From a virus, in the IMG/VR virus record IMGVR_UViG_3300028840_002119, positions 1 to 56,778 of that record: a stretch of DNA of 56,778 bases; one strand, written 5' to 3'. Below, in pieces: positions 3,560 to 39,576 of this stretch. The position numbers were made by a program, and so were the translations under genes. The notes under the pieces were generated by a model. That model was not told the origin of the DNA and searched no databases. It saw only the letters and a program-made list of their open reading frames with translations. Each line of letters starts with the position of its first letter. Position 1 is the first letter of the stretch.

Positions 3560-4456
3560 TCACTTTGTTTCCCCATAGATCAAAGGACTCGGACCTTTGG
3601 GGAAGTGAATAATGTGATGTTGTAACAGCCCGCGATATACACTCCCGACTACCCGCGCCTCATCTTGCAGTCCAGCGTCAACCAGGTCGCGGATGTACCG
3701 CTCTAACGCCAATGCTACGTTGTTGGCCTTCCTCATTCCTGGGAGATCATCGTTAGTGGGGATGATACGTTCTGGCCGCGCCTCTTCCTCGGCTTTCCTC
3801 GTATCGACCACCGTCGTCATAAATGCGGCCATATCGAACATAGCCTCTTGTGCCTGCTCTTCGAGGAGCTTGCTGCACAGTTGTCGGAATTCCTTGATAC
3901 GCGGCTTCGCCGTGGTCGCGATGTACCGCAGCGCGATTCTCTGACGATTGCTATCCAAGTCCTTGAGCGCGTATGCGTACTTGATGCCCATCTGTCCATC
4001 GCGTACTAGCTTCTGCGCTTCTGGCACCGTTTCGAGAAGGGCGAGGCGCAATCGAATCCGTTGAATTGGCACACTCGCCTCAATCGCCAGCCTGCTGACG
4101 TCCCAACCAAATCGGTCAATCCGTTTCTGGTACGCCTGCGCCTCTTCGATCGGATTCAATTCGGCCCGTTGGATGTTTTCGAGCAACATCACCCCACTTG
4201 CCCGTTCATCGTCCATATCGCGCACCAGCGCCGGAATGGTTTCGGCCTTCAGCAGCTTGTGTGCGCGCCAGCGCCGTTCACCGGCTACGATCTGGAATCC
4301 AGCACCAAAAGGGCGCACCGTGATCGGCTGGGCAAGTCCATGCTTGCGAATACTCTCAGCCAATTCCGCGATGCTGTTTTTGTCGAATCTCTCGCGATCA
4401 TTGTCGCCAGGGATGATCTGCGAGACTGGAACTTCCTGCACCGTTTCTAATGTCAT
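3560..4456 (-). CDS. ParB-family DNA-binding protein 1 (298 aa)
   Basis: Classical ParB/Srx N-terminal fold: VSQIIPGDNDRERF at 11-24, the CTP-binding box GERRWRA at 59-65, and ENIQRAELNPIEEA at 93-106. A helix-turn-helix region follows near 118-140, then a helical C-terminal part. In known ParB proteins this fold binds a centromere palindrome and slides as a CTP-dependent clamp. No ParA-type ATPase was seen, so the partner is unclear; transcription or genome-organisation roles are possible. The start ATG follows GGAGG immediately downstream of hammerhead copy 3. Confidence 0.9.
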   Translation of the reverse strand: MTLETVQEVPVSQIIPGDNDRERFDKNSIAELAESIRKHGLAQPITVRPFGAGFQIVAGERRWRAHKLLKAETIPALVRDMDDERASGVMLLENIQRAELNPIEEAQAYQKRIDRFGWDVSRLAIEASVPIQRIRLRLALLETVPEAQKLVRDGQMGIKYAYALKDLDSNRQRIALRYIATTAKPRIKEFRQLCSKLLEEQAQEAMFDMAAFMTTVVDTRKAEEEARPERIIPTNDDLPGMRKANNVALALERYIRDLVDAGLQDEARVVGSVYRGLLQHHIIHFPKGPSPLIYGETK

Positions 4457-6791: not shown

Positions 6792-7271
6792 TTAGCTGTC
6801 ATCTCGTAGATAGACCTCGATTGTACCATCCGCCATCATAACGTAGACGCCTGGGTCCGAAAACGGGCAGTGCATACTCTCGACCTCTGCATCATTGCGG
6901 ACGACCATCAGAGGGACAAGGTGCGGATCGTACCTTTGGTAAGGCGTAGGCAAAGACTCCAGCCAGTCGACGACGTTGGGCATTTTGACCACCCACATCA
7001 TTGTGGGGGCCGGTCCGAACTCCGCGATCTTCGCCTTCGCTGCTTTGATGGCCGCGAGGATGTCATCGCCATCGGTGGCCACGTCAGTCGTTCCAGTAGA
7101 CGGCCGTACCGTCATTACATCCTCAAAAGTCTCAAGCTGAAACCCGATGTCAATCTTCGGCCAGTGCCAAGTCATGCACTTATGCACCTCACAGAAGCGA
7201 TACTGACACCATTCCGGCCTGAGTACCACAAACTTCGACGGCTCGCACCATTCACACGTCCACTTAATCAC
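6792..7271 (-). CDS. Hypothetical Cys-rich N-terminal protein (159 aa)
   Basis: The N-terminal 35 residues contain C6, C9, C22, C27 and C32 with interspersed Trp (WTCEWCEPSKF, WCQYRFCEVHKCMTWHW), suggesting a zinc-binding module. The rest includes a helical DDILAAIKAAKAKIAEFG stretch. Its start overlaps the ThiF gene end by 8 bp, so it is translationally coupled to the PRTRC cassette and is the last gene of that operon. Confidence 0.7.
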   Translation of the reverse strand: MIKWTCEWCEPSKFVVLRPEWCQYRFCEVHKCMTWHWPKIDIGFQLETFEDVMTVRPSTGTTDVATDGDDILAAIKAAKAKIAEFGPAPTMMWVVKMPNVVDWLESLPTPYQRYDPHLVPLMVVRNDAEVESMHCPFSDPGVYVMMADGTIEVYLRDDS

Positions 7272-8064
7272 GATTTTCCTCCTGTTCTTCGGTCAAGATC
7301 GGCAAACTACGCGCCGAACCACTAACCAGATCGAAGTACGTTGCATAGATGTCCAAGTCCTGACTCAAAATCAGGCGATACAGGTATTGCGAAGCGAAGG
7401 TAGCCACGGCCTGGTTGACCATTAGGCTCTGGGCATCGCGTAGGGTCAACTCCGCGCAACTTTCGGCCATCTTCTCTACAGGGTCATCGACCAGCAACTC
7501 AGGATGTTGGATGGAAGGCAGTGGTAAACCCGAGCAAAAATCCAGCGTGAGTTCTGGTTTTTCGAGATCATACCGATTGCCAAGCAGCACTTGGCCAGCG
7601 TGTTCCGCGTTTCCGCAATCCAGCCACCAGAACTGATATGCTGGCGCGCGACTCGCGATGCTCCTGCGTGCGGCGGCATTGTCCACGCACCCAACGACGA
7701 TGCACAAATCCTTCCCGTTATTGCGATACATCTGCGTGTAGTTTTCAACGCCATCGACGATAGCCTTGATCTGCAAACCGAATGCGGCGTTGTATCTCCG
7801 CATCAGGGTCCACGCCTTTGCCGCACCTATCTCGACGGGTGAGAAATTCTGACGACCGATGTTCTTGTGCTCTACGATGTCAGGGTCAATAAAGGTCAGG
7901 CTTACAGGCAACTGCCGTTGCTCGTGGGCGTGATATGCGAGACGCGCCAGGTGCAGCGCGACGAATGAACCCGTACCCCCACAGCCGACCAGCACGATCT
8001 TGACCTGCTCGATCTCGCCCACCATAATCCTGCGTAGTCTCTGAGTTGTTAGCTTAATCTCCAC
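7264..8064 (-). CDS. PRTRC-type ThiF/E1-like adenylyltransferase (266 aa)
   Basis: Nucleotide-binding loop VGCGGTGS (26-33), DPDIVEHKNIGRQNF (60-74) and GCVDN (125-129) are standard E1/ThiF/MoeB motifs for adenylating the C-terminus of a ubiquitin-like protein. WLDCGN (147-152) and the region SCAELTLRDAQSLMVNQ through YFDLVSG near the end match the PRTRC ThiF family layout, where other E1s differ. C150 and C203 are candidate thioester cysteines. It is 3' of the JAMM, E2-like and Ubl genes in one operon. Known: the PRTRC family is named for ParB plus ThiF. Inferred: it activates the 10997 product. Confidence 0.88.
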   Translation of the reverse strand: MEIKLTTQRLRRIMVGEIEQVKIVLVGCGGTGSFVALHLARLAYHAHEQRQLPVSLTFIDPDIVEHKNIGRQNFSPVEIGAAKAWTLMRRYNAAFGLQIKAIVDGVENYTQMYRNNGKDLCIVVGCVDNAAARRSIASRAPAYQFWWLDCGNAEHAGQVLLGNRYDLEKPELTLDFCSGLPLPSIQHPELLVDDPVEKMAESCAELTLRDAQSLMVNQAVATFASQYLYRLILSQDLDIYATYFDLVSGSARSLPILTEEQEENRD

Positions 8065-8620
8065 GAATTGCCTCCCCTGAAAGTTCGAGACGTCCGGCCT
8101 CTCCGACCATCATCGCCTTTCCTGCCTCTGCATACATCTTGACCAGTTGCAGGCTCGCCCGTTGCACCGTGGGCATCCGGTCTTGTGGCGGCGTTGCCAG
8201 CATCACCACGGCCAAACGGCCAATTTCATCCAGCGCCCGATAGACATCCTCAGCGATAGACGTAGGCAGCGTCTTAGGCTTGTCTCCATCACCCTCGACG
8301 AAGAACCAGTCGTCAAGTAGATCGTGAGACTTAACACTGAATCCATAGATGTACTTCCCGTTGCGATACCTGACGACTTCCGCGAAGACGTCGGCCAGCG
8401 TGAACATCCCTGCCCGCAACTGCTTGTACGTCCCTGCCCTCTTCGTTTTCAGGTAGCCATCGCCGTCAATCCGACACAGTGACCGGAGCACTGCTTTCAC
8501 GGCCATGCTGAACGGCCCAACCTTTTCGCCCGCGATGTCTCTGCGCGTGTCGATGTTGTCCAAGTGTATCGCGTCCACCTGGCGCCAGCCTTCCCCAAAG
8601 TATTCTTGCACACCCTTCAT
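8054..8620 (-). CDS. Unrecognised protein inside the PRTRC cassette (188 aa)
   Basis: Overlaps both neighbours by a few bases (JAMM gene upstream, ThiF gene downstream), so it belongs to the cassette. Begins MKGVQEYFGEGW. Contains a basic stretch (YLKTKRAGTYKQL) and a helical C-terminal half. No family recognised; it could be a substrate or accessory factor of the conjugation set. Confidence 0.75.
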   Translation of the reverse strand: MKGVQEYFGEGWRQVDAIHLDNIDTRRDIAGEKVGPFSMAVKAVLRSLCRIDGDGYLKTKRAGTYKQLRAGMFTLADVFAEVVRYRNGKYIYGFSVKSHDLLDDWFFVEGDGDKPKTLPTSIAEDVYRALDEIGRLAVVMLATPPQDRMPTVQRASLQLVKMYAEAGKAMMVGEAGRLELSGEAIRGD

Positions 8621-9222
8621 CGCCTCTTTACCTCCGCGAGTTTTGTCTTACCGAAAAACAACATTTCAAGGGGTACGGTCCAGAAGTCACCATAAACGCC
8701 TACGCGCAACTGTATCTGTGGTCGGGTGAAGATGGTGCCAATCACTCCATACAAGCGGAACCCTACCTCGTCACGATCGTCTATAGGACTGAAATTCGCC
8801 GCGCCGTCGCAGTGGCTATGGATGTCCATGATCACATCCGCGCCACCATCACCGACGCACACAGCATGGGTTTCTCCAACATTCTGACGCGGCCTTACTA
8901 TTCTCGCGTTCAACCCATCCATGCGGATATGGTAAAGCGCCTCTTTCGGAGATGCTGTCGCCACCGATCGAGCATCGTGCAAGATCGAATCGAGCAAGTA
9001 TGCCGGCAATTCCCCTTTCCTCAGTTGGACCTTTGGCCTCAAGAGCGGCAGTCCCACGATCTTACACGTCGCCAGGGGGACGATCGCCAGCAGATAGGCG
9101 TTACGAGCGACCTTGAAAACCCCGTTACCGGCCATCACGTAGTGGTAAGTATGGCCGTCGCCAAAATCCGGCTCATGTCCAGAATGGATGATGTACCCTG
9201 CCGGATTCCTTATCTTCAACAT
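8617..9222 (-). CDS. PRTRC protein A-like JAMM/MPN isopeptidase (201 aa)
   Basis: HSHCDGAANFSPID at 135-148 fits H-x-H-x7-S-x2-D exactly (H135, H137, S145, D148), the zinc site of JAB1/MPN deubiquitinase-type enzymes; a Glu in the preceding 45 residues (E94 or E117) would complete it. Family PRTRC A has this domain at the C-terminal half, as here. Probable role: trim the Ubl precursor or remove it from targets. Overlaps the B gene by 7 bp and the next gene by 4 bp. Confidence 0.87.
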   Translation of the reverse strand: MLKIRNPAGYIIHSGHEPDFGDGHTYHYVMAGNGVFKVARNAYLLAIVPLATCKIVGLPLLRPKVQLRKGELPAYLLDSILHDARSVATASPKEALYHIRMDGLNARIVRPRQNVGETHAVCVGDGGADVIMDIHSHCDGAANFSPIDDRDEVGFRLYGVIGTIFTRPQIQLRVGVYGDFWTVPLEMLFFGKTKLAEVKRR

Positions 9223-9935
9223 ACCTCACCTACCTTCGCCTTCATCAGAAGATCGTCAACCGGATAGGCTTCAGCTCCAGACAAGGCTTGCCATTGCCGG
9301 AGCACGTTGTCAGGATGCGCTCGTGATTTACCATTTGCAAAATCCAGATTGAAGACGCTCTCGAAGAACAGCGCCAGCGCCGCGTGAATCGTCGTGCGAC
9401 TGCACAAAGGCTGGTCAGTGTTTCCCCAACAGATGCGCCCTGTCTCTGCGACGTTGGGCAAGGGCGCGTGAAACAGATCGTCACCCTCAGTCGTCGGGCG
9501 CTTTGCGACGGCCCACAGCCAATAGTCGTACCCCTTACCTGCAAACACCAAACCAGGAAGGACGATATCAAAAACATCAGGGAATCCCTCTGACTTGACA
9601 TTCATTTTGCGTCTCTGCGGGGGCACGTAGATACCGATGGACTCCTCGCCATCCTCGCGCCTGTAGAACAGGCAATCGGCGGGAAGTAGGCCGCTGGTCA
9701 ACGGCAGACCAGAGAACGCCACGGCCAGCGCTTCGGGACTGATCTCGTAAGCACTCACGGCCTCGCCGCGCTCGAACTTCGTCAGGATGATCGTTTCTTC
9801 GTACAAATCAACGCGGCCCTGGATTTTCTGATAGCTCGCGTCTGATAATGCCGCATCGCCATTCAGCGCAATCTCAAGCGCACTATAGGCATCATAAACG
9901 TTTACGTGTTCTGTGTTCGTGTTTTCGTCTGTCAT
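9216..9935 (-). CDS. PRTRC protein B-like, E2-related fold (239 aa)
   Basis: The segment LPADCLFYRRED, the aromatic YDYWLWAVAKRPT and the motif FHAPLPNVAETGRICWGN (155-172) followed by ALALFFESVFNLDF match the PRTRC B pattern (a P-x-F/L-x-N-V...G-x-[IV]-C-x-G box, then FF-x-S-x-F). Published domain analyses place this family near E2 conjugating enzymes, in which C169 would be the active-site candidate. It sits between the F-position gene and the JAMM gene, as in plasmid cassettes. Enzymatic activity is unproved for the family. Confidence 0.82.
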   Translation of the reverse strand: MTDENTNTEHVNVYDAYSALEIALNGDAALSDASYQKIQGRVDLYEETIILTKFERGEAVSAYEISPEALAVAFSGLPLTSGLLPADCLFYRREDGEESIGIYVPPQRRKMNVKSEGFPDVFDIVLPGLVFAGKGYDYWLWAVAKRPTTEGDDLFHAPLPNVAETGRICWGNTDQPLCSRTTIHAALALFFESVFNLDFANGKSRAHPDNVLRQWQALSGAEAYPVDDLLMKAKVGEVC

Positions 9936-10819
9936 GTCTCTGCACTCTCCAACTTCACTATGTGGTCAGCCATTGGAGCGAGATGGAAGATCGGCCCGAT
10001 CAGCTCCAAGACCTTCATTGTTGCCTGTACTGCATCCTTGCCCTTGAACCAGTCGATGTATGCCTGCAACTGGGCAAGTTTTGGTTTCGCGGCCCGATAG
10101 TCGAGCGCATACATCTCGACGGCCCAAGCGGTCCAGCCATTGCGTGTTTCCCAATCCTCGTATTCGCCATCCCACATCGCGGGAACGTTGTCGATGAAGG
10201 AATTGCCAGAGGCCCGCGTGAAGCACTGATAAGCAACTGCCATCCCATTGAAAGGGACCGGCAGCGCGTTCAACTGCTCGAAGATGCGGCTCTGGTCAGT
10301 CACTACCTTGTACTGCGTGAATCCCTTACGCGCCAGCCACCCCAGGGCATCGTTGTAGCGTTCGTCTGCGTATGCCTGCATGTGCTCGTATTCAGGCTGT
10401 AGCCCAGAGATCGCCGCTGCACCGATCGGTGCGTAGTGGTCTTCGACATGATGCACCGGACACACTTCCCACGGTATACCATAAGACTCAGGCCAGATCG
10501 GAAGCCACAATGCAAACGTCTCGCCTCCCCACACAACTTCGTCATACGCTTCGAGATCAACCGGAAAAAGCTCGTTATGAATCCGGCCTAACAGTTGCAC
10601 CTCTACGTCATACGGCCCACCTGTTGGCTTGCGACTTTCAGGGAAGATTTGACCATACAACCTGCGCGCGTTTCGATATGCGGATAGATACCCATCATCG
10701 ACCGCACCGATCATCGTACTATAGCTCAACAAGCGGTATCTATCGAGCAGCCGCTTGAAGGTGCGTAGTTTCAGAACCCTGGCGGCAGGCGGCTGGGTTT
10801 GGCTGATAATGCCAAGCAT
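9932..10819 (-). CDS. Unrecognised protein at the PRTRC F position (295 aa)
   Basis: ATG start after GGGGAGG. No motif is recognised with certainty; there are Trp-rich parts (WGGETFALWLPIWPES, WDGEYEDWETRNGWTAW) and an ICP-free helical C-terminus. Known plasmid cassettes run E, ParB, C, F, B, A, ThiF. This gene lies exactly between C and B, so it is the positional counterpart of F, though sequence similarity cannot be confirmed by eye. Overlaps the 10771 gene by 49 bp and the B gene by 4 bp. Confidence 0.72.
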   Translation of the reverse strand: MLGIISQTQPPAARVLKLRTFKRLLDRYRLLSYSTMIGAVDDGYLSAYRNARRLYGQIFPESRKPTGGPYDVEVQLLGRIHNELFPVDLEAYDEVVWGGETFALWLPIWPESYGIPWEVCPVHHVEDHYAPIGAAAISGLQPEYEHMQAYADERYNDALGWLARKGFTQYKVVTDQSRIFEQLNALPVPFNGMAVAYQCFTRASGNSFIDNVPAMWDGEYEDWETRNGWTAWAVEMYALDYRAAKPKLAQLQAYIDWFKGKDAVQATMKVLELIGPIFHLAPMADHIVKLESAET

Positions 10820-11010
10820 CGCTCTACGACCTCCCCTGATTTGATGACGTGTGTCGTCAGTTCATTGCTATGCTGTTCGAGTTGTTGTATCACGGCGGCT
10901 AGTTGTGTAGCGTCGTGCTTGAACTTGACCAGCGCCATAAGTTGACTTACAGCCTCCATGTGTAGAGGCTGTAAGTCTTCAAGACGAGCAACTATATCAG
11001 TGCTGTTCAT
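10771..11010 (-). CDS. Small helical protein in the PRTRC cassette (79 aa)
   Basis: Overlaps the Ubl gene end by 14 bp and the next gene by 49 bp. The sequence is almost entirely helical by pattern (DLQPLHMEAVSQLMALVKF, AAVIQQLEQHSNELTTHVIK). No family recognised. Confidence 0.65.
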   Translation of the reverse strand: MNSTDIVARLEDLQPLHMEAVSQLMALVKFKHDATQLAAVIQQLEQHSNELTTHVIKSGEVVERCLALSAKPSRLPPGF

Positions 11011-11197
11011 CGCTCCCCTTCGTAGTCGCTTTCTTAACGAAGGTCACAACATTCAAATCTCCGTCCTTCGACTTCTTCACCGTGGCCGCAGCAACTTCCG
11101 CGAAGTGTGGCGTCAACTGCCGCCGAACCTCTTCTACGGTCAACTCGTCGTTTTCGTCAACGTACTCATAATCCTGATACTTATACTTCGTCGCCAT
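10997..11197 (-). CDS. PRTRC protein C-like ubiquitin-like (beta-grasp) protein (66 aa)
   Basis: The length and the pattern LTVEEVRRQLTPHFAEVAAA followed by a strand pair DLNVVTFVKKATTKG match the PRTRC C family, small beta-grasp proteins regarded as ubiquitin-like. The family usually ends near TKG; here G61 is followed by SDEQH, so five residues might be removed by the JAMM enzyme before E1 adenylation. That maturation step is inference. It overlaps both neighbours and is three genes upstream of the E2-like gene. Confidence 0.82.
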   Translation of the reverse strand: MATKYKYQDYEYVDENDELTVEEVRRQLTPHFAEVAAATVKKSKDGDLNVVTFVKKATTKGSDEQH

Positions 11198-11381
11198 CTG
11201 TCTGCACCTCCACTAGTAGTAGAACGTTCACGGACAAGCGTTGCATCTTGCCGTTATCGACGGGCTTTACAAAAGCCGTCTGATAGTCGGTAGAGAAGAA
11301 GCGCACCTGCCCTACCATTTCACCATACCGCACATAGTCACCCACATCGAAGGGAATCCCCAACTCACTCGGCTTCGTCAT
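11181..11381 (-). CDS. Small beta-rich protein in the PRTRC cassette (66 aa)
   Basis: Lies between ParB and the Ubl gene with 17-bp overlaps on both sides. FDVGDYVRYGEMVGQVRFF is the kind of sequence seen in SH3-like barrels of nucleic-acid or protein binding modules. No family can be named. Confidence 0.65.
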   Translation of the reverse strand: MTKPSELGIPFDVGDYVRYGEMVGQVRFFSTDYQTAFVKPVDNGKMQRLSVNVLLLVEVQTDGDEV

Positions 11382-12852
11382 CGTCTGCCGCCTTCGTTCC
11401 CTGCACCAGTTCAGGGAAGTACCCTTCGAGCAATTCTGTCAGCAGCCACTCGATACGATCGAACTTGCCACTCTTGAACGCTGTGGGGCCAGTCTCGCCA
11501 ATCGAACCCTGGACGTCGCGCTCGCGGAGATCAGTACCAGGCATAATCAGCAAGGTTACGCGCACCGGACCAGGGACGTGAGGCTTTGGTGTCGGCGGCG
11601 GGAGTACGATAGTTGGCTTTGCCCGCGTGTGAGCAGACACCTGGACGGTAGCGGCTGGCGGCGTCGTGTCGCCCGTTTGAGCTAGAACCGTGGGTGCGCC
11701 CGCGATCTCTGCTTCCTCGACGGTCTCTTCGGTCTGGAATTCTGTCGGCTCAAGTCCGCCAGCACGCTCGCGGCAGTCAGGGCAGATCGCCTTCATCATC
11801 CGCTCGCTCTGTAACCAGCCCGTTGCCTCGCTCGACGTTGATACCATGTCACGATAGGCCCGATTGCATCCTGAACATTGCGCCCACGCCTGCGGCTTAT
11901 CGACCAGCAGCCAAGTATCGTTCAGCTTGTCGCGTAGCAGCTCATAAGTCTGCTTCGCCTTCTGCGGACCTTGTATCACGATCTTGTGCTTGCGGATTTT
12001 GGCTTGCCGGCAGCGCAGGTCAGTACAACGCCACTCGCGCCCAATCTTGACGTGATCTTTGCAACCTTCACATATCCGCGTGTCCTTCTCACAGGCGTCC
12101 CACTTCGCATCGAAGCCCACGTCGTCAGGGGTCAGGCTATACGTGTTTTCACGGACGTGCCTTGCGACGGCGGCGCTCAATTCCTTCACCGTTCGATACT
12201 GACCAGGGACGCCAGTGCCCAGGATGCTGAGGAAGACTTGCCACTTCTCGTCCATATCGACCAGGGGCAGCAGCGCCCGACCGTGGCGGCCTGTAATATC
12301 GCCATCGCGGATCAGCCCTTGCACCTTCACCGGAAGACGAAGCAAGCGGATAAGATTTGCGACCGCACTCTGCGACAACCCCCACCGTTCACCGATCTTC
12401 GTTTGACTCAACTTAAAGTCGGTGATTGCGCGATCCAGGGCGACGGCCCGTTCGATGTCACTGATACCGTCGCGCTTCTCGTTTTCGGCCCATGCGATGT
12501 CTGCCATATCGCTATCACTCAACATCCGCAGCTCAACCGGAAAAGTCTCGTAATGCGCGTTGCTCTGCGCTATCTCCATGAAGGCCCGCAGACGACGATG
12601 GCCGACACTGATCTGCACCATTGCCTTTTCGTGCGCCCGCAAAAACTCATTCCAGTCTTCGTCTACCCCTGACACGATGATCACTTCGCCGTCAAGGACG
12701 ATTCGAGCGGGAGGCACCTGGATCAGCCCGCTTGTCTCTGGTAAGACTTCGCGCAATTCGAGTATCGCGTCCCTCAACTCGGTTAGGTCGCCATACACCA
12801 TGCGCGTCTGGTAAGGATTGTCTTCAATCCTTTTCAACGGAATTCTAAACAT
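11365..12852 (-). CDS. PRTRC-type ParB protein with helix-turn-helix and zinc-finger-like tail (495 aa)
   Basis: ATG at 12852 chosen because AGGTGA precedes it and the ParB fold begins at once (MFRIPLKRIEDNPYQTR). Residues 84-90 are GHRRLRA (canonical GERR with Glu to His), 123-136 ENEKRDGISDIERA, a helix-turn-helix at 148-170 (SQTKIGERWGLSQSAVANL), and GRHGRALL at 188-195, all as in chromosomal ParB/Spo0J. The C-terminal half has Cys clusters (CEGC, CTDLRC, CSGC, CPDC), probably two zinc ribbons, instead of the usual dimerisation domain. A palindrome resembling parS starts 19 bp upstream of the ATG. Likely a DNA clamp or regulator that may be coupled to the Ubl system. Confidence 0.9.
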   Translation of the reverse strand: MFRIPLKRIEDNPYQTRMVYGDLTELRDAILELREVLPETSGLIQVPPARIVLDGEVIIVSGVDEDWNEFLRAHEKAMVQISVGHRRLRAFMEIAQSNAHYETFPVELRMLSDSDMADIAWAENEKRDGISDIERAVALDRAITDFKLSQTKIGERWGLSQSAVANLIRLLRLPVKVQGLIRDGDITGRHGRALLPLVDMDEKWQVFLSILGTGVPGQYRTVKELSAAVARHVRENTYSLTPDDVGFDAKWDACEKDTRICEGCKDHVKIGREWRCTDLRCRQAKIRKHKIVIQGPQKAKQTYELLRDKLNDTWLLVDKPQAWAQCSGCNRAYRDMVSTSSEATGWLQSERMMKAICPDCRERAGGLEPTEFQTEETVEEAEIAGAPTVLAQTGDTTPPAATVQVSAHTRAKPTIVLPPPTPKPHVPGPVRVTLLIMPGTDLRERDVQGSIGETGPTAFKSGKFDRIEWLLTELLEGYFPELVQGTKAADDDEAE

Positions 12853-12870
12853 AGCCCTTTCACCTCGTGT

Positions 12871-12886
12871 TATTTCCTGGGAAATA
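12871..12886. promoter_or_regulatory. Dispersed palindrome site 2, at the parB start
   Basis: TATTTCCTGGGAAATA; 7-bp arms with a TG centre. Lies 19 bp upstream of the PRTRC ParB ATG, touching its ribosome-site region, so autoregulation is plausible. Confidence 0.88.
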
Positions 12887-12956
12887 TTGAAATGCGGGAA
12901 GGTGGCAAAGCTGCCACCCTCCCCATGAAACCGACCTCGGTAGTCGGCCAACACCT

Positions 12957-14150
12957 CTATCCTCGTATCTGTGTAGACAACGCGGCCAGCGCCTTGCTCC
13001 AATCGCCGGACGCCTTTGCCGCCGTTATCTCTGTAGAGACTGGCGGGTGCTTTTCTACATCTGGCGACACCCGTCCGGCCCCCTTCAACTGCCGTACCCG
13101 CGTCCAAAATTCCGTTGGACCTGGCACCGGCTCTTGAACTTCATCGGCCTGCGGAGTGACGCCTTCCGCATCCTCTCGCGGGAAGTAGTTATCCAGATCA
13201 GAGACGTCTTCGATCACCTCGCTTTCTTCATCTGGCGGCGGGTCGATGATGTCAGGCCGCGCCAGCACATTGTCAATCCAGAGCGCGTGTAACTCTACGC
13301 CCTTCATTCCGCTTTCACGGGCAACTTCCTCGTATGCGTTGCGTGCGTGCTGAATCGCCTTGAACTTACCGCGATCAAAGCCCCACTCGATGGCCTCGGC
13401 GTCGTCATTGAACGAAGTCGGGATAGCCTCTTGAAGTGCATCGCGTTCTTCTTCGGTCAGGCCGTCATAAACGGCGTGCTCGATCTTCTCAGGCATATCC
13501 AGCCACGTACCAGAATCGTCCCACAGGATGGGCACTTCCGGAAACGTGCGCCCACGTCGCGCCCATACGACCTTGATACCGCGCACGTCATCGGCACGCT
13601 TGACGATTTGCAGCTTCAAGTTCAAGCAGCGGAGCAAGCGCACCAACTCAGTCTTACTCACCGTCGCGCGCGTTTCCTTCTCGCCCTGACCATCGCGCCC
13701 ATCGTTGAGATGGTAAATCCAGAGTACATCCGTACCCCACCGCGTAACCACATCCTGCAACTGCGCCATCGCGATAGCCTTTGGTGCAAATGCAGCGGCG
13801 AGATTCTTTTCGCGCCCAGTTTTGTGCGCCTGCATCCCTTCGACTACCAGCGGTTTGATGATGGCCGTCAGGCTGTCCGTGACGATTGTCCGCACCCCAC
13901 TCCCTGGCATATTGGCCATGAGCAGTTGGGCGATGCGATCTGTGTCAACGTGGTCGGCGGGATTGTCGCTCAATTCATAGACAAGCGCATCGGTCACATC
14001 GAGCACTTCACGGAAGCGATGATCTGCATCGATCGGCAGAATCGGACTCCGCATCCGCATCGCAAAGGTGGTTTTCCCTCCACCTGGATACCCGACTAAC
14101 CCCCACAAGCGCGGGGGATAGTCGGTCTTCACCATTTTATTGAACGGCAT
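12957..14150 (-). CDS. RecA-fold P-loop ATPase, phage recombination/repair type (397 aa)
   Basis: Walker A GYPGGGKT at 20-27, DADHRF at 41-46, Walker B-like RTIVTDS at 87-93 and a KTELVRLLRCLN stretch. The layout is that of phage Sak4-like or AAA_24-type single-domain RecA paralogues that assist strand annealing. The C-terminal 130 residues are acidic and low-complexity. It is not a ParA (no KGG-x-x-KT motif), although it directly precedes a ParB gene. ATG start with AGGAG. Confidence 0.78.
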   Translation of the reverse strand: MPFNKMVKTDYPPRLWGLVGYPGGGKTTFAMRMRSPILPIDADHRFREVLDVTDALVYELSDNPADHVDTDRIAQLLMANMPGSGVRTIVTDSLTAIIKPLVVEGMQAHKTGREKNLAAAFAPKAIAMAQLQDVVTRWGTDVLWIYHLNDGRDGQGEKETRATVSKTELVRLLRCLNLKLQIVKRADDVRGIKVVWARRGRTFPEVPILWDDSGTWLDMPEKIEHAVYDGLTEEERDALQEAIPTSFNDDAEAIEWGFDRGKFKAIQHARNAYEEVARESGMKGVELHALWIDNVLARPDIIDPPPDEESEVIEDVSDLDNYFPREDAEGVTPQADEVQEPVPGPTEFWTRVRQLKGAGRVSPDVEKHPPVSTEITAAKASGDWSKALAALSTQIRG

Positions 14151-14970: not shown

Positions 14971-15768
14971 CTAATCACGTTCCATCGGCTGAGAGTAAAG
15001 GAAGCGACCATCGTCGAAGGGGGAGACACACAAGTTACCAGCTAGCCGCCAGCCCTTTTCCATCAGCACCGAGACGACCTCGACCACAACGCCAGGAGAA
15101 GAAGACTCCACAATCTGATAGAACGGCTCTTCCTCTGCATCGGACTCTGTAGCCTCAACTTCAACCGTCTCGGGCATAGCCGCTTCATTAACCGCGTCGG
15201 ATTCCATAACTGCGGCCAGTCCTTCAAGCTCTCCGTAGAGGTCAATGCGCTCATAGGCCAGTGCCACCATCGAAGCCCACTCCTCGCTGTTCGACTTTCG
15301 AGACGTATACAAGTGGGTGACGCCATCATCCTGAACGTGATACCATCCATCTTCGAGATGTCCTTCCGGCTCGTAGATGTCCACCCGATACTTACCCTCG
15401 AAGTCCGTCGCCAGCGCGATAGCCGCAAGTAGGAGAGACTCGAATCTTACGGCAGTATCTTGACCATCTTTCCAGAATCGGAAGCTGGCCCAAAGCAGGG
15501 GCAAGTCCTCGATCTTGAACTGCACCCAGATCTGCCCTCTCTCATGGTCAATGAGCGGAGTTCGATCATAGGCCAACAAGGGCAACAAAGGGTCAGGAAC
15601 GATCGCCTTCAAAGCATCTTGGAACGCTCGAACGCGATCGGCAGCTTCGTCCACTCGCGCCTGTTCTACTGCGGCCTGACGCGCTTCCTCTTGCTGGCGT
15701 GCGTGAGACAACTGCGCCTCTCCCTTCGCCTGCATATCCTCAAGGCTCGTGTAGACCTTCTTCGTCAT
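14971..15768 (-). CDS. Hypothetical protein with DUF1737-like C-terminus (265 aa)
   Basis: Residues 10-55 form a charged coiled coil. The middle part is beta/alpha and a long acidic linker follows (VEVEATESDAEEE). The last 48 residues (YQIVESSSPGVVVEVVSVL, then GWRLAGNLCVSP) have the Y-x-V-V...GW-x-x-x-G pattern of the small DUF1737 domain. Overlaps the upstream gene by 4 bp. Confidence 0.68.
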   Translation of the reverse strand: MTKKVYTSLEDMQAKGEAQLSHARQQEEARQAAVEQARVDEAADRVRAFQDALKAIVPDPLLPLLAYDRTPLIDHERGQIWVQFKIEDLPLLWASFRFWKDGQDTAVRFESLLLAAIALATDFEGKYRVDIYEPEGHLEDGWYHVQDDGVTHLYTSRKSNSEEWASMVALAYERIDLYGELEGLAAVMESDAVNEAAMPETVEVEATESDAEEEPFYQIVESSSPGVVVEVVSVLMEKGWRLAGNLCVSPFDDGRFLYSQPMERD

Positions 15769-16049
15769 GCCGCCACCGCCAACCGAATCGGGTCATGCAC
15801 CGCGTCCATTCTGCGGGCAATCGCTGAGGCTCGCCCCAATACTTCGGGCGGACCAAAGCGATAGATAAGCTCGCTGAACAACCAGCAGTTGACATTGAGC
15901 GGGAAGACCGTCGGCGGATTGTCCCGATAGAACAACCGTAACCGATCTTCATACTGAGGCAGTAATGCCTCCACCGTCGCGGCGATCTGCTCTTCCGGCC
16001 CGTGAGCAGTAAGCGCCTCTTGCAACAAGGGAACTTCGTCTCTGAACAT
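15765..16049 (-). CDS. Hypothetical protein (94 aa), first gene of the leftward operon
   Basis: ATG follows GGAGGT. Helical residue pattern, no recognised family. Preceded by a 180-base leader with an intrinsic terminator. Confidence 0.68.
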   Translation of the reverse strand: MFRDEVPLLQEALTAHGPEEQIAATVEALLPQYEDRLRLFYRDNPPTVFPLNVNCWLFSELIYRFGPPEVLGRASAIARRMDAVHDPIRLAVAA

Positions 16050-16074
16050 ACCTTTACCTCCGTTTTGAATTATG

Positions 16075-16104
16075 AAAAAACCCCCGCCGATGATTTTGCG
16101 AGGG
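16075..16104 (-). terminator. Leader terminator of the leftward (PRTRC) operon
   Basis: On the minus strand CCCTCGC pairs GCGGGGG and is followed by six T, ending 26 bases before the first ATG. Transcripts from the promoter at 16235 must pass it. Confidence 0.82.
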
Positions 16105-16123
16105 TTGAATAAGATGTTACAAT
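16096..16123 (+). promoter_or_regulatory. Candidate promoter of the small antisense RNA
   Basis: TTGCGA (16096-16101), 16-bp spacer, TACAAT (16118-16123). The -10 matches 5 of 6 and the -35 matches 4 of 6. Confidence 0.45.
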
Positions 16124-16129
16124 GATCTT

Positions 16130-16201
16130 ACCTACACCCGCCTATCTCGGTTGTGGGGAAAGTCACGATTAGGTTGCCGGACCTGATCGTGACTGTTTTT
16201 T
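16130..16201 (+). ncRNA. Candidate countertranscript small RNA with kissing loop
   Basis: A roughly 72-nt plus-strand RNA. The 5' hairpin at 16132-16156 (CUACACCCG / CGGUUGUGG, one mismatch, one G-U) presents the loop CCUAUCU. A 14-bp hairpin (16161-16194) followed by G and six U is an intrinsic terminator on the plus strand. This order matches plasmid countertranscript RNAs. It is fully antisense to the leftward leader, and its loop is the exact complement of AGAUAGG, the loop of a hairpin in the rightward replication leader (16423-16437). No protein is encoded here. Confidence 0.58.
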
Positions 16202-16234
16202 CTGTTAAAGTTATTACGTAAGGGTACTACCTAT

Positions 16235-16263
16235 ATTATAGCATGGGTCACATTTCGTGTCAA
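16235..16263 (-). promoter_or_regulatory. Consensus leftward promoter of the PRTRC operon
   Basis: TTGACA at 16263-16258 and TATAAT at 16240-16235 on the minus strand, spacing 17: both boxes are perfect. The transcript would carry a leader with the hairpin loop AGAUAGG and the terminator at 16075. Confidence 0.9.
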
Positions 16264-16280
16264 TAGAATGTATGTTCTAT
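16263..16280. promoter_or_regulatory. Operator-like inverted repeat, LexA-like
   Basis: ATAGAATGTATGTTCTAT. On the minus strand it contains GAACATACATTC, one base from the Gram-positive LexA pattern GAAC-N4-GTTC. It abuts the -35 of the leftward promoter. Confidence 0.4.
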
Positions 16281-16331
16281 AAAAAGCGCGATCCAGGCAT
16301 GGCCTTTTCGAGATGACTTTTCGCGAAATGC

Positions 16332-16360
16332 TTGACAACGCTTCTGTTTTCCTGTAGAAT
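16332..16360 (+). promoter_or_regulatory. Rightward promoter of the replication operon
   Basis: TTGACA (16332-16337), 17-bp spacer, TAGAAT (16355-16360). Confidence 0.85.
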
Positions 16361-16366
16361 GAGTAC

Positions 16367-16482
16367 ATACCGAATCGTAATACCTCGATGCAGCCGGACA
16401 CTCATCGAAGGTCACAGACTTAGCCGAGATAGGCGGCGTTACCTGAGCACTTTACACCCTGCCTATTGGAGCAGGGTTTTTT
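16367..16482 (+). promoter_or_regulatory. Attenuator leader of the replication operon
   Basis: Contains a target hairpin GCCG-AGAUAGG-CGGC (16423-16437) and an intrinsic terminator CCCTGC/GCAGGG plus six T (16457-16482). AUAGGC of the target (16429-16434) can pair with GCCUAU (16461-16466) in the terminator's 5' arm and loop, giving an antiterminator. The 13-mer CCGAGATAGGCGG (16424-16436) is repeated in the leftward leader (16150-16138, minus strand). The whole 16050-16504 gap is control DNA with no coding sequence. Confidence 0.65.
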
Positions 16483-16504
16483 CATTCTTATGAAAGGGGT
16501 GCTT

Positions 16505-17275
16505 ATGACCATAGGAGCAATGTCCATGAATCCAGACTCAATTACCGTAAAACTCGCGGCAGAGCTTGCAGGCTACACCACGCACAATATCAGACGCCTA
16601 GCTAGAACGGGCGTTCTAAAAGCGGATAGGTTTGGTACAGCCTGGGCCATCGACCGGACAAGCCTACTCGATCATATCGCTGAAAACAAGCGCTTAGGGC
16701 AAGGCAAGCACGCAGCAAACCGCTACACGAAGGACTTGGGAATGATACAGAAGCTAGACCTCACCGAAGCACTGGTCCTCGACACCGAGACGACCGGACT
16801 AGGCAATATGGACCAGATCGTAGAGATCGCCATCATCGACATGACCGGCAATCTGATCTTACAATCCCTGCTGAACCCCACCATCGCAATGACTCAGCGC
16901 GCCTATGAAGTCCATCGCATCGGCCCATCGGAGCTAGATGCTGCCCCACTCTTCCCCACCATCTGGCCTGAGCTTATCCGCGTCCTGAATGGTAAGAAGG
17001 TCATTGCTTACAACGCCAACTTCGATATGCGGATGATCGCCCAAACCGCGCACGCCTTCGACCTGGACCTCACGCTCTTGGATTGCGACTTCCATTGTGC
17101 GATGCGCGCCTACGCGATGTATCGCGGCGGCAGGCGCAACTACAAGCTGACCACGGCCTGTGCCGCGATGTCTGTCACTGGGCTTCCCGAAGGGATGCAG
17201 CCCCACCGCGCCCAAGCGGACGCTGAACTGACGCGCCAACTCGTGCTGAAGATGTTGGAGACGCCAGCAGACTAG
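16505..17275 (+). CDS. HTH domain fused to DnaQ-like 3'-5' exonuclease (256 aa)
   Basis: ATG at 16505 is preceded by AAAGGGG; an alternative ATG at 16526 with AGGAG is also good. Residues 12-58 are an excisionase/MerR-type helix-turn-helix (TVKLAAELAGYTTHNIRRL). Residues 88-250 are a DEDDh exonuclease: DTETTGLG with D93 and E95, YNANFD with D174, and H234/D239 in HRAQADAE. Such exonucleases proofread or process DNA ends. Fusion to a DNA-binding domain is unusual and would target it to specific sites, perhaps the origin in the next gene. First gene after the attenuated leader. Confidence 0.85.
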   Translation: MTIGAMSMNPDSITVKLAAELAGYTTHNIRRLARTGVLKADRFGTAWAIDRTSLLDHIAENKRLGQGKHAANRYTKDLGMIQKLDLTEALVLDTETTGLGNMDQIVEIAIIDMTGNLILQSLLNPTIAMTQRAYEVHRIGPSELDAAPLFPTIWPELIRVLNGKKVIAYNANFDMRMIAQTAHAFDLDLTLLDCDFHCAMRAYAMYRGGRRNYKLTTACAAMSVTGLPEGMQPHRAQADAELTRQLVLKMLETPAD

Positions 17276-17284
17276 GAACCCGCT

Positions 17285-18259
17285 ATGAATAACGAGATCG
17301 TTTTAGAGGAAAGTCCGCGCACGCACTTCCAGATGCTTCCGCACCTCATTGATGATATGGGCCTGGATGTCTACGAGCATCGCCTGTACTGCCATCTGCG
17401 GCGTGTCGCCGGAGAACACGGCAAGTGCTGGCAGACTACGCGCACCCTCGCCGCAGCCTGTAACATGAGCGTGGGTAAAGTATCTCAGGCAAAGCAAAGC
17501 CTCGAACAGCGCGGGCTGATCGTCATCGCGGAGCAAGCTGCCCCTGGCGGTATCTCGCACCATATCACGATCGCGGACATCTGGCGCGAGAATCACGAAC
17601 GCTATAGCGTTCACCAGGTGAACGCAAGTGATAGCGTTCAGGACGTGAACGCAAAAAATGGCAGGGTTCAGGACGTGAACGCAATGCGTTCACCAGGTGA
17701 ACCAAAGAATATCCCTTCTAAGAATACCACTGAACATGAAGAAGATGGAGAGGGAGAAGGCGCACAAGTGCGCCCCCCTGACTGCCTACCGAATCAATTC
17801 GATCTTTCTGTAAAGGCTATCAAAAAAATGAAGTTCAGGCGGGCAGAGTATTTCGCCATCCTCGAAGCGGAGCAGGGACGCGAGAAGCCGCGCAGCACCC
17901 TAATTGACCATATCGAGAGTAAGCTGTCAGTGAATCAGCATCCGGCCGTAGCGATCTTTCGTGAGCAGACGCATTACTATCCTCGCGGAGAATGGCGTCA
18001 GAAAGTCGCTGATACGGTCGGAGAGCAGCCAGTAGCCCTCGACCTATGGGAAAGGGTCTGCGAAGGTTGGGTCGGCATAGGCTGGAATGTACTCAACACG
18101 AAGGGGATGCTTGACTACTGGGCACGCGGAGAAATACCAGGGGAAGATCGACCGGAGAAACAGCCAACGGGCGATAATGCGTTCGAGGAGTTCGAGCGAC
18201 TGACCGGACTTAGGCAAGTCCAAAGGGTAGAGGAAAATGTCACCTACGTTGACGCATGA
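17285..18259 (+). CDS. Replication initiator-like protein with winged HTH (324 aa)
   Basis: Residues 15-95 look like a winged helix used in phage and plasmid initiators (EHRLYCHLRRVAGEHG, TTRTLAAACNMSVGKVSQAK, LEQRGLIVI). The middle is encoded by an array of palindromic repeats (17598-17704), giving the peptide repeats VHQVNA, VQDVNA, VQDVNA. The C-terminal half is helical and Trp-rich. An origin inside the initiator gene, as in lambda O, is the natural reading. The 3' end overlaps the helicase-loader-like gene by 23 bp. Confidence 0.75.
   Translation: MNNEIVLEESPRTHFQMLPHLIDDMGLDVYEHRLYCHLRRVAGEHGKCWQTTRTLAAACNMSVGKVSQAKQSLEQRGLIVIAEQAAPGGISHHITIADIWRENHERYSVHQVNASDSVQDVNAKNGRVQDVNAMRSPGEPKNIPSKNTTEHEEDGEGEGAQVRPPDCLPNQFDLSVKAIKKMKFRRAEYFAILEAEQGREKPRSTLIDHIESKLSVNQHPAVAIFREQTHYYPRGEWRQKVADTVGEQPVALDLWERVCEGWVGIGWNVLNTKGMLDYWARGEIPGEDRPEKQPTGDNAFEEFERLTGLRQVQRVEENVTYVDA
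17598..17704. repeat. Iteron array, probable replication origin
   Basis: Four 19-bp repeats, GCGTTCACCAGGTGAACGC type, at 17607, 17634, 17664 and 17686, each an inverted repeat with TTCA/TGAAC arms. A half-site GAACGC at 17598 forms the palindrome GAACGCTATAGCGTTC with repeat 1. Spacing is 27, 30 and 22 bp. A-rich DNA follows (17640-17760). The location inside the initiator gene and the spacing close to helical turns support initiator binding sites. Confidence 0.8.
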
Positions 18260-39560: not shown

Positions 39561-39576
39561 TATTACCCAGGAAATA
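39561..39576. promoter_or_regulatory. Dispersed palindrome site 5
   Basis: TATTACCCAGGAAATA (one arm mismatch). It is 18 bp from the tape measure start on one side and 18 bp from the start of the rightward gene at 39594 on the other. Confidence 0.7.

Follow-up and report, generated by a model that had tools for sequence, protein, structure and literature searches.

A putative antisense RNA with predicted targets in two divergent leaders of a phage that carries PRTRC genes

Antisense RNAs that act by premature termination are known from plasmids and from a satellite phage. RNAIII of plasmid pIP501, 136 nucleotides (nt) long, causes transcription of the repR leader to terminate prematurely (PMC4981023), and the CI RNA of satellite phage P4 silences replication genes via antisense-dependent premature termination (PMC4825925). 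RNAII of plasmid pMV158 acts on repB at the start of translation (PMC4485353). Here we analyze a 56.8-kb phage record from IMG/VR (IMGVR_UViG_3300028840_002119; the whole of this stretch is called the window below), in which the region between leftward genes leading into a set of PRTRC genes and a rightward helix-turn-helix (HTH)-exonuclease/initiator operon appears to encode a small antisense RNA (sRNA) of ~72 nt with two stem-loops. We put the probability at about two in three that this RNA senses copy number and regulates two operons, the PRTRC operon in cis and the divergent one in trans. The closest known mechanisms are those of pIP501 RNAIII and P4 CI RNA.

As in the RNAIII systems of pIP501 and pAMbeta1 and in pT181, the antisense promoter lies inside a controlled leader, an attenuator terminator precedes the gene, and loop-loop contacts and negative feedback are predicted. 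However, the plasmid feature of an antisense RNA encoded within the leader that it controls is found here for the left leader and not for the right, which would be contacted in trans. The window sRNA also differs from pIP501 RNAIII in its small size and two stem-loops, and from both pIP501 and pT181 in that it would control the PRTRC operon plus a divergent one. In further contrast to these plasmids, the controlled genes include no homologous Rep initiator, the first genes encoding an orphan 94-aa protein and an HTH–DnaQ exonuclease, and the RNA has no match in Rfam and resides in a phage, apparently of Chloroflexota. With P4 CI RNA it shares being a small phage RNA for which antisense-dependent premature termination at replication genes is predicted. 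CI RNA, however, is processed from the transcript that it controls and pairs with the flanking seqA and seqC, whereas the window sRNA has a separate antisense promoter and a terminator of its own, and its second target belongs to a separate, divergent operon. The Rfam scan lists no CI RNA/seqA family, and P4 was compared by description only. Like pMV158 RNAII, the window sRNA is a small antisense RNA opposite a leader, and its relatives in L024 and L027 hold the Shine-Dalgarno sequence in the sense loop, but the step predicted for the window is termination and not translation. In the literature searched, no arrangement was found in which a single antisense RNA with its own promoter acts in cis on one operon and in trans on a divergent one, and among the titles and abstracts listed for PRTRC and for Chloroflexi antisense RNA none describes such a system. 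The view of the preliminary description that no such phage system had been described thus survives for the specific layout and not for the mechanism, which is known from P4.

The plus-strand unit between the two leaders carries the promoter TTGCGA-N16-TACAAT, the loop CCUAUCU and the strong terminator reported in the preliminary description, together with a TG ahead of the −10, and the three promoters and the named terminators of the region are likewise all present. The sRNA promoter has a weak −35, and the terminator of the unit points toward the rightward operon. The unit is complementary to both leaders. Because the sRNA is encoded inside the leftward leader, it would pair along its entire length with that leader, and because its hairpin-I loop is exactly complementary to the rightward leader, it could act there in trans too. 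The 13-nt motif CCGAGATAGGCGG has only two exact copies in the whole window, one per divergent leader, and the best duplex between the sRNA and the right leader scores 14.5, a value reached by 0 of 2,000 dinucleotide shuffles. The proposal that the motif folds with the loop AGAUAGG in both leaders held for its complementarity to CCUAUCU but not for the fold itself: the lowest-energy hairpin of the right leader is GCC-GAGAUA-GGC and not CCG-AGAUAGG-CGG, and in the left leader no small motif hairpin is seen at equilibrium, the motif being absorbed into the predicted antiterminator.

Neither a DNA similarity search against annotated phage and plasmid records nor searches of viral contigs with single proteins, taken from four genes of the two operons, returned relatives; alignment of the PRTRC ThiF protein gave 30 viral contigs. 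In two of them (L010 and L013), as well as in a contig of a Chloroflexota metagenome-assembled genome (L112), the PRTRC operon begins with the same layout: a consensus promoter faces, on the other strand, an extended −10 followed by one small and one long hairpin. A scan of 1.42 Mb of related loci for this architecture recovered the known units and two variant units in L024, with 1 match in shuffled sequence; two weaker matches, in L013 and L028, were chance-like. The DNA pattern TCTAGCCC...GGTTAMC...ATTRTA matched only the two phages already known. A covariance model built from four sequences (R1) then found further, independent units in Chloroflexota genomes. Among ten members, 91% of pairs were standard (62.5% in shuffles) and covariation was 0.783 (0.237 in shuffles), and all 12 pairs of the modelled hairpin II stem covaried, each having changed on both sides.

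A second model that followed this ten-member analysis (R2) matched in 21 of 400 Chloroflexota genomes (E <= 0.001), and homologous units in Chloroflexota total ~40. There were no R2 matches in 244 cyanobacterial and 247 acidobacterial genomes; these controls contain no known positive, so the result means only that the family was not detected there. PRTRC-bearing genomes outside the family (cyanobacteria, Acidobacteria and some Chloroflexota) likewise gave no family match. An opposing σ70-like promoter with at most two mismatches, which is not part of the model, is present in 15 of 32 new members where 0.4 would be expected, and a terminator follows the antisense promoter in 29 of 38 members, compared with 27% of shuffles. 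Across the family, the extended −10 of the sRNA promoter is conserved and the hairpin-I loops vary widely while the stems covary and the antisense promoter persists. The window, itself a training member, scores 69.7 bits with R2 and has the extended −10, the two stem-loops, the covarying hairpin II, the opposing 12/12 promoter and the terminator before the first gene. Rfam scans gave no match for the family, including none to any plasmid countertranscript family. Collectively, the sequence data indicate that this is a real antisense RNA family, not listed before.

The attenuator terminator of the left leader lies ahead of the first leftward gene, between it and the antisense promoter. In folding calculations the free left leader has a terminator probability of 0.007, compared with a mean of 0.96 when the part covered by the sRNA is shuffled, and only 0.7% of the shuffles reach a value as low as the native one. 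With the sRNA region blocked, the probability is 1.0, compared with 0.0 for the free leader. Folding thus predicts the leftward terminator only for a leader covered by the antisense RNA, and the window leader strongly resembles, in these models, what antisense-induced attenuation predicts. Cis-antisense control of the PRTRC leader is well supported because the covarying family has opposing promoters and usually a downstream terminator.

In the right leader, the terminator likewise lies ahead of the first gene. AUAGGC(GG) of the nascent RNA is predicted to pair with the 5′ arm of this terminator once transcription has reached 16466–16470, with a probability of 0.70–0.76 compared with 0.26–0.31 for shuffled motifs. 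By folding, mutually exclusive antiterminator and terminator structures are clear in the left leader and marginal in the right, and a switch of the right leader by the sRNA is predicted less strongly than that of the left.

We searched for second targets with the sRNA hairpin-I core of the ~40 members, within 3 kb or the shorter available locus. Matches were found in the window (+317 nt) and in L013 (+328 nt), each in the divergent leader and ahead of a terminator. L013 is colinear with the window (capsid protein 57%, portal 55% and PRTRC proteins 37–56%), and the L013 sRNA and the divergent leader of that phage can form 11 bp including one G-U (p ~0.01), whereas cross-pairing of either sRNA with the right leader of the other phage gives 6 bp only. 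The loops have thus changed jointly within each phage, in one comparison; covariation of the loops in relatives had been proposed beforehand as a check. The second loop of the L013 sRNA, GCCGUUAC, also has a match in the L013 divergent leader, in the loop of the preceding hairpin (8 nt, p ~0.012), an 8-mer restricted to the two leaders within the 20.7-kb locus, whereas in the window only the first sRNA loop is shared with the divergent leader. The dual-target design is a plausible but rarer variant, present in the window and one colinear relative. Sequence and statistics bear out this coupled loop change in one relative, as they do the RNA family, the promoters, the terminators and the complementarity to both leaders.

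These observations suggest a model in which the plus-strand unit encodes a small antisense RNA folded into two stem-loops, conserved in a family of Chloroflexota phages and genomes. When the sRNA is absent, the leftward leader would fold the antiterminator and the PRTRC operon would be transcribed; when it is present, the terminator ahead of the first leftward gene would form. The same sRNA would act in trans on the rightward leader through its hairpin-I loop: with the motif blocked, the nascent AUAGGC-GCCUAU antiterminator would be lost and termination before the HTH-exonuclease and initiator genes would be favored. Since the element itself encodes the sRNA, the amount of sRNA would rise and fall with copy number, and the outcome would be negative feedback, via copy number, on the replication-related and PRTRC genes together. 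We infer that the sRNA is expressed, that kissing is the first contact and that the feedback follows copy number. The claim that one RNA tunes both operons drew support from the antisense gene with its covarying family, from the predicted cis attenuation of the PRTRC operon and from the second complementary loop, with attenuation in the right leader marginal by folding. The label "replication leader" used for the right leader was loose: the DnaD/O-like initiator is the second gene, and the first encodes an HTH–DnaQ-like exonuclease. Taken more broadly, the proposal is that one promoter-driven antisense RNA coordinates two divergent operons, the PRTRC operon in cis and the replication-related operon in trans by one or two kissing loops, that its RNA family, not described before, serves Chloroflexota phages and other mobile elements, and that the variable loops resemble incompatibility specificities; we lean slightly toward this wider statement.

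Several results weigh against this model. The antiterminator test in the right leader is marginal, 7–11 of 200 shuffles reaching the native value (p ~0.04–0.06), and the terminator nevertheless forms in the complete right leader (P = 0.99), so that any antitermination there must be kinetic; the AUAGGC/GCCUAU pairing of the preliminary description is predicted for the nascent RNA. In most other family members the free leader already folds the terminator at equilibrium, and antiterminator pairing across the family, in a crude duplex test, did not reach significance (Fisher p 0.09), so the left switch is well supported for the window and not for the whole family. The hairpin II stem is a palindrome, and its covariation alone cannot assign the strand. 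No clear second target was found within 3 kb in members other than the window and L013, the remaining matches (9.5–11.5) being scattered at chance density, and the second-target matches in L013 are individually modest (p ~0.01 each). Finally, the left leader of L013 has a Shine-Dalgarno-sequestering fold in place of a terminator, possibly a translational version of the switch: at L013 1090–1190, GGTTACCTCCTATTGT can pair with ACAATAGAGAGGCAACC or with the Shine-Dalgarno sequence ACAATAGGAGGTAGTTAC.

The main rival explanation is that the sRNA is purely a cis-acting attenuator of the PRTRC operon, as in most of the family, and that the right-leader motif is an unregulated vestige of a duplicated leader. 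Consistent with this, the other members lack a clear second target, as noted. In addition, the right leader, when tested for an sRNA of its own against the family model, gave a background score only; in both the window and L013 the antisense strand of the right leader aligns with the full model in register at such a score, without an antisense −10, so that both resemble duplicates that have decayed and lack an antisense promoter. Under such decay, however, drift would be expected, yet the window motif is identical over 13 nt and both L013 loops still fit their own sRNA despite the changed loop sequence. A duplicate leader that keeps a complementary loop is what a shared regulator predicts, and we consider the vestige unlikely.

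The motif might instead be a DNA operator (CCG-N7-CGG inverted repeat) to which a protein binds, for example the exonuclease through its HTH domain, the hairpins being incidental; in each leader it forms a short, imperfect inverted repeat, and several family members have small HTH genes nearby. An operator does not fit a position ~57–90 nt downstream of both promoters or the lack of any further copy in the window, nor does it fit a family with widely varying loops, covarying stems and a conserved antisense promoter, and we give it very little credence. The same small weight falls on the notion that the plus-strand terminator and weak promoter form an insulator or a chance promoter whose short, non-regulatory transcript only keeps antisense transcription out of the rightward module. 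The strong terminator aimed at the rightward operon and the weak −35 of the sRNA would suit such a role. However, in the ~40 homologues the promoter is conserved jointly with hairpins I and II, and the leader on the opposite strand has a promoter of its own and in most cases a terminator as well; the loop match to the second leader would also be left unexplained. If the model of an antisense RNA with two targets is true, plasmid-style antisense-RNA copy control would be widespread in Chloroflexota, where the literature searched showed none, this phage would have wired such control to two operons at once, and the RNA would be a first regulatory handle on PRTRC systems. The features of the region are collected in Table 1.

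Table 1. Coordinates of the divergent region and its genes in the window
Feature	Position	Strand	Remark
Promoter of the sRNA, TTGCGA-16-TACAAT	16096..16123	+	Extended −10 (TG at 16115-16116)
Antisense sRNA, ~72 nt, ends inferred	16129..16201	+	Member of covariance-model family R1/R2
sRNA hairpin I	16131..16158	+	7-nt loop CCUAUCU at 16141-16147
sRNA hairpin II, intrinsic terminator with TTTTTT	16161..16201	+	15-bp hairpin 16161-16194, then T-run
Leftward operon promoter, TTGACA-17-TATAAT with TG	16235..16263	-	12/12 consensus
Leftward leader RNA, start inferred from promoter, to ATG of first gene	16050..16228	-	
Target motif CCGAGATAGGCGG in leftward leader	16138..16150	-	Exact sequence match
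Leftward attenuator terminator, CCCTCGC-N10-GCGGGGG + T-run	16075..16104	-	
Rightward operon promoter, TTGACA-17-TAGAAT	16332..16360	+	11/12 consensus
Rightward leader RNA, start inferred	16367..16504	+	
Second target motif CCGAGATAGGCGG in rightward leader	16424..16436	+	
Rightward attenuator terminator, CCCTGCCTATTGGAGCAGGG + TTTTTT	16456..16482	+	5′ arm can pair with motif
First leftward gene, 94 aa, heads run leading to PRTRC genes	15765..16049	-	Homologue in L010
Downstream leftward genes: AAA_24 ATPase, ParB-like, PRTRC_B (Prok-E2_D), PRTRC_A (JAB-like), PRTRC ThiF	7264..14150	-	
First rightward gene, HTH fused to DnaQ-like exonuclease	16505..17275	+	PF00929, phrog_192
Second rightward gene, HTH_36/DnaD-like phage replication-initiation protein	17285..18259	+	Family matches

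The window encodes head, portal and terminase proteins, a Noc-like ParB and other ParB proteins, PRTRC proteins A, B and ThiF, and an FtsK-like protein, and the host of the phage is probably a Chloroflexota bacterium. The product of the first leftward gene had no match in protein family searches. Family members often lie beside mobile-element genes; judged by eye from translations, the genes near them encode serine/tyrosine recombinase-like, ParM-like and small HTH proteins. In L010, a second leader was looked for near the HTH gene and not found.

Some genomes hold more than one unit. One Chloroflexota genome, G014, has seven members (E 0.003), on contigs C78, C138, C194, C305, C309, C362 and C601, with differing loop sequences, as mutually compatible elements would have; with such differing loop sets in one genome, RNA-based incompatibility could be tested in a natural setting, and orthogonal attenuators could be drawn from them. 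In G218, contig C195 carries two members 1.5 kb apart on the same strand (9097–9202 and 10603–10706). The two related antisense units of L024 (1500–1625, minus strand, and 16005–16125, plus strand) have the Shine-Dalgarno sequence (GGGAG) in the sense-hairpin loop; the sRNA loops are both anti-Shine-Dalgarno and could cross-react.

The window also contains seven exact copies of the palindrome ATTTCCYRGGAAAT (6751, 12872, 19914, 23424, 42674, 49336 and 56135), where 0.35 would be expected, and two near matches, at 39562 and 32388. This palindrome is similar to the Noc-binding site of B. subtilis, ATTTCCCGGGAAAT, and the ParB encoded at 3560–4456 matches the nucleoid-occlusion model TIGR04285 with a score under the cut-off. 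The phage likely carries a Noc-like partition or occlusion system. The palindrome does not adjoin the sRNA-controlled promoter in the window; it does so in L010 (1549), L013 (897) and L112 (1659).
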